A stretch of DNA of 32,134 nucleotides. Source: Dictyobacter arantiisoli. Its GTDB lineage: Bacteria; Chloroflexota; Ktedonobacteria; Ktedonobacterales; Ktedonobacteraceae. Both the position numbers and the translations under genes were made by a program. The notes beneath the pieces are model-generated. The model made no database searches, was not told the origin of the DNA, and saw only the letters and a list, made by a program, of their open reading frames with translations. Shown in pieces: positions 26,668 to 28,796 of this stretch (within the stretch, counting starts at the first letter, position 1; every line of letters begins with the position of its first letter). The stretch covers positions 1-32,134 of the forward strand of contig NZ_BIXY01000088.1 in assembly GCF_008326305.1 (NCBI RefSeq), given 5' to 3'.

Positions 26668-26847
26668 ATGAGCACTTGTCTTATTCCTATCAAATCTCCT
26701 ACTGACATATCACCGATAAAAAATATAGCATTGCCCCTTTTTATCGTCAAGGACAATTCTGTCCGCGCAATGGCCTCTGTATCTTCTCTGTTGATTGTAT
26801 GTGATGGACATAAAGTACCCTGTGTAGCAAGTGTGGAGGAGTTTTAG
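26668..26847 (+). CDS. Small ORF, 59 aa, coupled to the replication-like gene
   Basis: Begins MSTCLIPIKSPTD and ends VPCVASVEEF, stopping two bases before the next start codon; the VEEF codons encode the GGAGGAG ribosome site of the next gene. ATG at 26668 has AAAGGAA nine bases upstream. No family is recognised. The tight junction suggests translational coupling, as with small control proteins or leader peptides of rep genes, but coding is not proven. Confidence 0.4.
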   Translation: MSTCLIPIKSPTDISPIKNIALPLFIVKDNSVRAMASVSSLLIVCDGHKVPCVASVEEF

Positions 26848-26849
26848 CC

Positions 26850-28796
26850 ATGAATTCAATCATTCCATTTGTCAGTTTAAAATCTATGATGAACCATGGG
26901 CAGCGCTGTATCCGGGATTGGTTTAGCTGCTATGGTGAAGCGGTTCTGATGCCGGGTATGGTTGCATTGCCATATGCGATTGAAATCTTTTATCCCCAAA
27001 CTCCGATTACAGAATGGGAAATGGGGGTTGTACGCATGATCCTCTTCAATAATCAATATGCGGAGCCGCTGGCCTGTCTGAGCATCGATGTCTTTTGTGA
27101 CCGCTTCCACCTGGGGGGGCGTCAGATCCAACGCAAGCTTAAAGTAATGGAAAACAAAGGACTGCTCAAAATCACCCCATACTACAGCGAGGACGGCAAG
27201 AAAACACCCTACAAGCTCTACGACTGCTATCCTTTCCTGAAGTTGATTGCCGACCTGGTGATACAAGACATGAAGCGTCATAAGGAGCTGGCAAAGCAGA
27301 AGGTACAGCTTGCCGCAGAGCATGCTCTGTCAAATGTGAGCAATATGACAGAAATGTCCGGCGCGACATCCCCATCCACGATGACAGAAATGTCCGGCGC
27401 GACAGAAATGTCCCATCCAAACGGCATACCCATCATCACAGAAATGTCCCCGGCGACCTATCCGCCCCTGTCCGGCGCGACAAACCTGTCGCCAGTGACA
27501 GAAATGTCAGCGGCGACACATTTGTCCCAGCAAAATGGCAGCTTCAATGTGACAGAAATGTCAGCGGCGACACATTTGTCCCAGCAAAATGGCAGCTTCA
27601 ATGTGACAGAAATGTCAGCGGCGATACATTTGTCCACCGGGGGAAGCGTGTCGAATCAGGTCCCATGTGAGCTCGAACAACGCATTCCTGAGCTTGCAAC
27701 CCTGTCGCGGACAGAAATGTCGCAGATAGCGGCGGACGGAAACGAATATTCGAAAAATTCGAATTCGAATATTATCAATAATACAAGTATTATTAATAAT
27801 ATTTATACTTCGAATTCGAATAATACGAATAAGAAAAAACTTAAAGAAAATGATGGGTACGAATGCATCCCTGCGGTCTGCCCGGAGGGGTCAATAGCAA
27901 CCAACCAGTGTGTTGAGGATAATGCCCCGGAAACATCTTCCATGTTTGACAAGAAGCAAGCAAGCTTTGAACAATGGGTCCAGGATGCCGTCGAGCAGGC
28001 GAATGCGGAAAGCGAGCAGGCAGAGCAGGTCACAGCAAGCAGTCAGTCAGGACAGCAAGCAAAGGCTGTTCGTGAGGCCAGCCCGCGCATCGAGCAGATG
28101 TTGGAGATAGAGTCATCGAACGAGCAGCCAGCCAAAATTTGCAAGATGGGATCGCTGGCTGAGACGGCGCTGCAGCGTATCTCCCGTGATCTGAATGACG
28201 TCTGGCCGCGCTCATCGCTGACGCAGGCCAACAAGCTCTACCAGCAACTCATGCAGATCAATCAGGTCGAGGACCGACACACGCTCAGCGATCCAGACCA
28301 GTTTTTTGCCGACATGATGGAGTTGATCTGTGTCAAGCTCAGCGGAATCAAGATCATGCGTGTCAATGCGCATGGACAGAGCAACGGGATGCCATTATTC
28401 TTCAAGACCCTGCGCCAGGAGGTGGAGAGCGAGGTGCAGCGTGTGCAGGACATGCGTGAGAAGGTTGAGCGCACCACAGCCGCCAGTGAGCGCTATCATG
28501 CCCGTCAGGCGCGCACCTGGGGTCCTGACTCACTCGGCGCGAAAATGGCTTCGGAGCATCACATCTCCCTCACCGAGAGTCATGCCATCTCGCAAGAAAT
28601 CGCCGCTATCCCGCTGTCCCCCGAACAGATTCTCTCCGAGGGACGCCGCCTCAACGTCGAGTATCTCGAAGATTACGCCGACGCCATGCTTGACGGCACC
28701 ATCAAGCCCTATCAGCGCGAAATGATCGAGTCCGGCGTACGCCTCAGCCTCTACTACGAGAAACTCGACGGTTACGCCTACAAAGCTGGCTACTAG
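26850..28796 (+). CDS. Replication-initiator-like winged-helix protein with TEMS repeats
   Basis: A 648-aa protein. Residues 1 to about 115 have a winged-helix-like pattern: TPITEWEMGVVRMILF, LSIDVFCDRFHLGGRQIQRKLKVMENKGLLKITPYYSE, as in replisome organisers and plasmid Rep proteins (helix-turn-helix then a beta wing). Residues about 166-291 contain TEMSGAT/TEMSAAT-type units, eight or more, with an 18-residue repeat twice. Residues about 298-335 are Asn/Ser-rich (NSNSNIINNTSIINN). The C-terminal part (440-648) is helical and charged, with no match recognised. ATG at 26850 has GGAGGAG upstream. Inference: a rep or phage replication protein with an internal origin-like DNA segment. It is not certain that it replicates anything now. 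Confidence 0.65.
   Translation: MNSIIPFVSLKSMMNHGQRCIRDWFSCYGEAVLMPGMVALPYAIEIFYPQTPITEWEMGVVRMILFNNQYAEPLACLSIDVFCDRFHLGGRQIQRKLKVMENKGLLKITPYYSEDGKKTPYKLYDCYPFLKLIADLVIQDMKRHKELAKQKVQLAAEHALSNVSNMTEMSGATSPSTMTEMSGATEMSHPNGIPIITEMSPATYPPLSGATNLSPVTEMSAATHLSQQNGSFNVTEMSAATHLSQQNGSFNVTEMSAAIHLSTGGSVSNQVPCELEQRIPELATLSRTEMSQIAADGNEYSKNSNSNIINNTSIINNIYTSNSNNTNKKKLKENDGYECIPAVCPEGSIATNQCVEDNAPETSSMFDKKQASFEQWVQDAVEQANAESEQAEQVTASSQSGQQAKAVREASPRIEQMLEIESSNEQPAKICKMGSLAETALQRISRDLNDVWPRSSLTQANKLYQQLMQINQVEDRHTLSDPDQFFADMMELICVKLSGIKIMRVNAHGQSNGMPLFFKTLRQEVESEVQRVQDMREKVERTTAASERYHARQARTWGPDSLGAKMASEHHISLTESHAISQEIAAIPLSPEQILSEGRRLNVEYLEDYADAMLDGTIKPYQREMIESGVRLSLYYEKLDGYAYKAGY
27347..27721. repeat. 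Eight ACAGAAATGTC boxes (iteron-like)
   Basis: The box occurs near 27347, 27383, 27401, 27437, 27497, 27551, 27605 and 27710, seven times as GACAGAAATGTC and once as CACAGAAATGTC. Each encodes TEMS in the same frame. Each box has the inverted arms GACA/TGTC, which protein coding does not require. The first seven starts are 18, 36, 54 or 60 bases apart, all multiples of six. Confidence 0.75.
27495..27602. repeat. 54-bp tandem repeat (18 codons)
   Basis: Two identical copies, 27495-27548 and 27549-27602, each starting GTGACAGAAATGTCAGCGGC; a third diverging copy begins at 27603. This is a recent duplication within the box region. Confidence 0.85.
27744..27840. other. AT-rich palindromic segment, possible unwinding element
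   Basis: A strongly AT-biased stretch contrasting with its flanks. It has GAATATTC (27744-27751), ATTCGAATTCGAAT (27757-27770), AATAATAC-AA-GTATTATT (27777-27794) and TTCGAATTCGAA (27809-27820). It directly follows the last box, the order found in many replication origins. Confidence 0.6.

Follow-up and report, generated by a model that had tools for sequence, protein, structure and literature searches.

Within a rep-like gene of Dictyobacter arantiisoli, a run of palindromic boxes is followed by a sharply AT-rich stretch. This locus raises the question whether selection acts on the DNA itself or on the encoded peptide and, if on the DNA, whether the segment is a replication origin lying inside the gene of its own initiator. 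The window, i.e. the whole stretch of DNA analyzed here, comprises 32,134 nucleotides (contig NZ_BIXY01000088.1) and belongs, as a single contig, to a draft genome of 7.2 Mb (G000); the comparison set consisted of five Dictyobacter genomes. Around the module, by which we mean the boxes together with the AT core and its flanks, metabolic genes are found, and neither parA nor parB was detected among the window proteins scanned.

Box array and AT core

The features of the locus are as follows.

26850 to 28796, plus strand: rep-like ORF of 648 amino acids (P0001) with a winged-helix N domain, a disordered linker and a helical C domain, as predicted from the AlphaFold model and homologues
26967 to 27329, plus strand: DnaD_N-like winged-helix N domain, residues about 40–160 (Pfam, PDB profile, Foldseek and the confident part of the AlphaFold model)
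28137 to 28469, plus strand: conserved helical C-terminal domain, residues about 430–540, with the motif NGMPLFF (alignment and model)
27347 to 27721: array of ten palindromic GACA-N4-TGTC boxes, starting at 27347, 27383, 27401, 27479, 27497, 27515, 27551, 27569, 27605 and 27710
27437 and 27623: degenerate GACA-N4-TGTC boxes in the array
27668 to 27673: TGAGCT/AGCTCA element preceding the AT core
27758 to 27769: left flank palindrome of the AT core, TTCGAATTCGAA
27770 to 27808: AT core, a candidate unwinding element, near-perfect inverted repeat AATATTATCAATAATAC-AA-GTATTATTAATAATATT
27809 to 27820: right flank palindrome of the AT core, TTCGAATTCGAA
26517 to 26528: additional GACA-N4-TGTC box 5' of the gene, which may be an operator
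26752 to 26763: extra GACA-N4-TGTC box about 90 bp 5' of the start codon, possible operator

The first-pass annotation had described eight ACAGAAATGTC boxes followed by an AT-rich palindromic segment. This description is confirmed, as ACAGAAATGTC occurs exactly eight times in the entire window, each time within 27347–27721, and it can be extended by the flanked core and by the wider palindrome GACA-N4-TGTC, which has ten exact sites in the same interval. The repeat unit is this wider palindrome with a variable middle (CATT and AACC occur too) rather than ACAGAAATGTC. Dinucleotide shuffling of the surrounding 1.36 kb yielded a mean of 0.01 boxes and a maximum of one, and a chance origin of the array is excluded. 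The box copies are not all independent, since two or three of them stem from a recent 54-bp tandem duplication (27497–27604). In the complete draft genome GACAGAAATGTC has 11 sites, seven of which are located in the array. The AT-rich segment (27747–27840) has a G+C content of 19%, falling to about 10% in the core (27770–27808). These 39 bp are themselves a near-perfect palindrome that none of 200 shuffles equaled.

Selection on DNA

All boxes of the window array share one reading frame and encode the peptides TEMS, THLS and TNLS. A protein repeat selected for the TEMS peptide is nevertheless ruled out, because the homologues use different peptides and frames. Within a single gene of D. aurantiacus (G003), and likewise of G001, the boxes occupy two frames, resulting in TxxS and DxxV peptides, and congeneric homologues have lost TEMS and retained the DNA boxes. 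Synonymous-codon shuffling of the window ORF (1000 shuffles) gave a mean of 1.4 and a maximum of five boxes compared to the ten observed. In four homologues the observed numbers of 6, 4, 4 and 2 compare with 0.4, 0.3, 0.75 and 0.18 after shuffling, and TCGAATTCGA palindromes are found two to three times against about 0.06 expected in this way. The homologues within the genus share 22–32% identity with the window protein, and each of them keeps the boxes and the paired TCGAATTCGA.

Selection on DNA had been suggested at first pass, together with a survey of synonymous variation across homologues. The suggestion is borne out: the boxes exceed the shuffle expectation in the window ORF and all four homologues, and they are kept without TEMS and even without an ORF (see below). 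Retention of TEMS with loss of the boxes had been named as the outcome that would speak against it, and the reverse was observed. Selection targets the DNA, not the peptide.

Distribution of the module and copies without a gene

The module is present twice in each of four of the five Dictyobacter genomes; the fifth, G002, contains neither a module nor the syntenic gene. The eight modules comprise 38 boxes in total, and their GACA/TGTC half-sites number 20–34 compared to 9–16 expected, i.e. two to three times the expectation. An AGCTCA word precedes the core by 40–90 bp in seven of the eight, the flank palindromes are spaced 35–50 bp apart (mostly 44 bp), and boxes flank the core on a single side or on both, varying by module. 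A single weak DnaA box was found near the modules. The core is AT-rich in all eight copies, but its palindromy is clearly above that of shuffles in only four, which counts against the origin reading.

One of the two loci, locus B, is flanked by genes for an O-acetylhomoserine sulfhydrylase, a CoA-binding protein and an NAD kinase. An intact coding copy is located there in the genome of the window (C91) and in G001 (C3). D. aurantiacus and D. kobayashii have the same neighbors at this locus on their secondary replicons, but there the ORF is absent and the module is non-coding; no remnant of the protein was detected by tblastn at these two sites. The intergenic DNA of locus B aligns between the two species in short stretches only, the AT-core part of the module being among them. 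In the chromosomal copy of D. kobayashii (locus A), the ORF appears broken with the module intact; this counts against the origin reading, as no particular protein is evident as the one that would act there. Since the module is kept in related species although the surrounding gene is lost or broken, the DNA itself matters. The window module exemplifies an origin-like DNA element that outlives its host gene, and it illustrates cleanly that selection at the DNA level can operate both inside a coding sequence and outside of one.

An integrated plasmid origin surviving as a relic, or a low-complexity repeat peptide, in either case lacking any present function, would agree with the fast evolution of the protein, with the recent 54-bp duplications and with a chromosomal place that has no skew signal. 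We consider this very improbable, because boxes and core persist in place while the protein and the intergenic DNA have diverged or vanished, and because synonymous sites are constrained.

Additional GACA-N4-TGTC boxes are found downstream of the C91 copy (L022:10063-10857), two of them in a stretch that extends the gene of the CoA-binding protein at its N-terminal end. A third, partial array (L062:100-490, G000:C173), with eight GACA-N4-TGTC boxes and TTCGAATTCGAATTCGAA, is non-coding and located upstream of a HAD hydrolase gene; it has no AT core.

Among 42 other genomes of the order, no AT-cored boxed copy was found, and G011 alone shows the flank pattern, but its gap is not AT-rich. In a collection-wide scan for paired TCGAATTCGA, three of the matches listed have both boxes and an AT-rich gap (one of them from D. 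vulcani W12); the remaining listed matches look like chance. Pairs of GACAACGATGTC in other genera (G008, G011, G025) have a fixed middle and probably represent a different operator. A viral or phage origin of the gene was rejected, as neither matches in phages nor relatives on viral contigs were found. PLSDB contained no plasmid relative, with matches to known plasmids being just low-complexity ones in Priestia, and a search of genome contigs for loci related to P0001 gave no match.

The encoded protein

The gene had been called rep-like, and the DnaD_N-type winged helix supports this designation. Pfam DnaD_N matches two of the five family members (best E-value 1.1e-9). The DnaD structure 2v79 from the PDB gave a profile match with E=1e-4 and was the top Foldseek hit, with a weak E-value of 0.011. 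According to the AlphaFold model, residues 161–373 are predicted to be disordered, and this is the part encoded by the module. The arrangement therefore matches the RepA_N-type intragenic origin proposed at first pass, whereas strict membership of that family is not supported, since PF06970 (RepA_N) matched none of the five members at E<=1. Rep_3 or any other Rep domain was likewise not matched in Pfam, and NCBIfam gave no match at all. The N domain is likely the binder of the boxes.

Winged-helix proteins are frequently regulators, and many MarR-like folds appear in the Foldseek list. Hence, the boxes could form an operator array through which the protein controls its own gene and the neighboring ones, and the two boxes upstream of the gene (26517 and 26752) would fit such a role. 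Most boxes, however, are found 0.5–0.9 kb into the gene, where they are linked with a flanked AT core, and the gene directly following the ORF-less modules differs from that following the coding ones. An operator function of the array is therefore improbable.

Position relative to replication origins

In both finished two-replicon genomes, D. aurantiacus and D. kobayashii, chromosome and chromid carry one module each. GC skew was sampled from 20-kb stretches rather than computed for whole replicons. In D. aurantiacus the modules are located at 5.33 of 6.13 Mb (chromosome C1) and at 0.868 of 2.75 Mb (chromid C2), whereas the skew switches at about 2.6 Mb and about 1.25 Mb, respectively. The module positions in D. 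kobayashii are similar; on its C2 the module is found at 0.841 Mb and the skew switch at about 1.57 Mb. Modules and skew switches are 0.4–3 Mb apart in the finished relatives. The window module is not at a skew switch either, and because of this separation the module is not the main origin now. Moreover, the same box word on both replicons of one cell would normally lead to incompatibility if both modules were replicon-specific origins. With one box type on both replicons and a location off the origins, the module more likely serves in accessory initiation or in coordinating the two replicons than as a main origin.

Palindrome arrays are typical of partition sites, and with one module per replicon the module could be considered a centromere-like site for segregation to which the winged-helix protein binds. 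The chromosomes, however, carry parAB and the chromids parA near their origins (PMC13289182), a partner ATPase was not seen near the modules, and the AT core would be left unexplained. We regard a segregation site as highly unlikely. Operator and centromere are both possible readings that account less well for the flanked AT core.

The replicons of D. aurantiacus are linear, and their shared terminal inverted repeats have been published (PMC13289182). All four ends of its chromosome and chromid (L110, L130, L063, L131) share at least 10.9 kb of identical sequence, and the two right ends of chromosome and chromid are identical over 20 kb or more.

A chromid gene with an intragenic array

At the skew switch of the D. 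aurantiacus chromid, near parA, an ORF of 751 amino acids is located (L297:16011-18266; G003:C2:1252014-1254266, minus strand). It contains 23 GTCTAC/GTAGAC boxes, and its AT core is flanked by ACGTAAC and GTTACGT repeats, an arrangement like that of the window module. Homologues are present in D. kobayashii (at 1.567 Mb), the genome of the window, D. vulcani, G002 (at 0.813 Mb) and four further genera, and in three species the gene is located at the skew switch. A repeat-word array with a flanked AT core was found in all 16 loci of this gene examined, mostly of the AGTCTACC type. In the nine genes computed, AGTCTAC occurs 11–24 times compared to 1–4 expected, i.e. four to 11 times the synonymous expectation. 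The 751-aa ORF has no Pfam match, its structure model gave no reliable fold match, and hhalign detected no homology between its product and the window protein. The single contig of G002 (8.88 Mb) has two skew switches, as expected from a chromosome-chromid fusion or a misjoin, and its 751-aa ORF is located at the first of them.

In a 2026 study on the chromids of Ktedonobacteria, Pfam revealed no Rep initiator (PMC13289182). The 751-aa gene with its intragenic array is a candidate for the missing initiator and origin of these chromids. This candidate, whose putative origin is intragenic and coincides with the skew switch of the chromid, was reached through the design seen in the window, and it bears on the published absence of a recognized Rep. 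Within this group of bacteria, a flanked AT core combined with an array inside a gene likely marks a real origin, and the 751-aa array and core at the skew switch are the main reason for the origin-type reading of the window module.

Several peculiarities were noted at these sites. Beside the chromid parA (L297:9761-15700) a long GTACGTGTACGT-like low-complexity tract is readable as VYVYVY or RVRLRL, and an ORF for a group II intron-type reverse transcriptase overlaps the same parA region. Upstream of the 751-aa gene CCCCACCAGGGTTCGG repeats are found. The left end of G002:C1 (L135:1-5598) is a perfect 5.6-kb fold-back palindrome, which fits a hairpin end or a fold-back assembly artifact.

Interpretation of the module

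Since the module is located off the skew switch, among metabolic genes and on both chromosome and chromid, an accessory or control site of plasmid descent is most likely. Specifically, the window module may be an intragenic origin module of plasmid type that lies in its presumed initiator's gene and has been retained as a site of accessory initiation or replication control; from the sequence comparisons we rate this reading as about evenly balanced between right and wrong. The N domain would bind GACA half-sites as dimers, cooperative filling of the array would strain and then open the AT core, and the C domain would recruit the replication machinery, in the manner of RepA_N plasmid initiators.

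Alternatively, the module could be a replicon-coordination or titration site comparable to Vibrio crtS or the RctB titration locus. The protein would then bind the chromosomal and chromid modules and time or limit replication of one or both replicons, and the AT core would be left from an older origin. This would explain a single module per replicon at syntenic non-origin places in both finished two-replicon genomes, identical half-sites on both replicons and the retention of the chromid module without an ORF. It would also agree with the lack of module and syntenic gene in G002, whose single contig with two skew switches looks like a fusion, but this correlation comprises one genome. A binding or titration site, however, does not need an AT core between palindromes, and the chromid initiator candidate has a different box (AGTCTACC), so that no shared initiator is evident. 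On balance, we consider pure coordination or titration unlikely, although it deserves attention.

A plasmid-derived initiator gene could have given rise to a frame-independent DNA module on a linear chromosome and a linear chromid, with one protein reading both and coordinating their replication. This proposal is speculative and rather doubtful. With the elements described here, replication of the giant linear multi-replicon genomes of Chloroflexota becomes directly testable.

Comparison with known systems

Streptomyces linear plasmid replicons such as pSLA2 are linear as well, and origin iterons within the rep gene have been reported for them; Streptomyces belongs to another phylum.

In the RepA_N plasmid pSK41, Rep boxes are located within rep, the linker encoded by the origin is dispensable and the initiator has DnaD-like domains (PMC5703833). 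The window protein resembles RepA_N initiators of the pSK41 and pSK1 type in its DnaD-like winged-helix N domain and its separate helical C domain (PMC5703833). In both cases the boxes are located in the rep gene, and box array and AT-rich DNA encode the central disordered part, which is predicted here. In contrast, the window protein has no PF06970 match, and its module consists of many 12-bp palindromes with a palindrome-flanked AT core. It is also present on a linear chromosome and a chromid, off the skew origin, and can exist without an ORF.

The RctB/ori2/crtS system of Vibrio likewise combines a large initiator without sequence relatives with iterons and an AT-rich segment, and crtS, located on the main chromosome at a distance from that chromosome's origin, is important for the second replicon (PMC6090056). 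The protein family is not the same, and crtS has no homology to the RctB sites of ori2, whereas both Dictyobacter replicons bear one box type. The off-origin location of the module and its presence on both replicons are only compatible with a crtS-like site.
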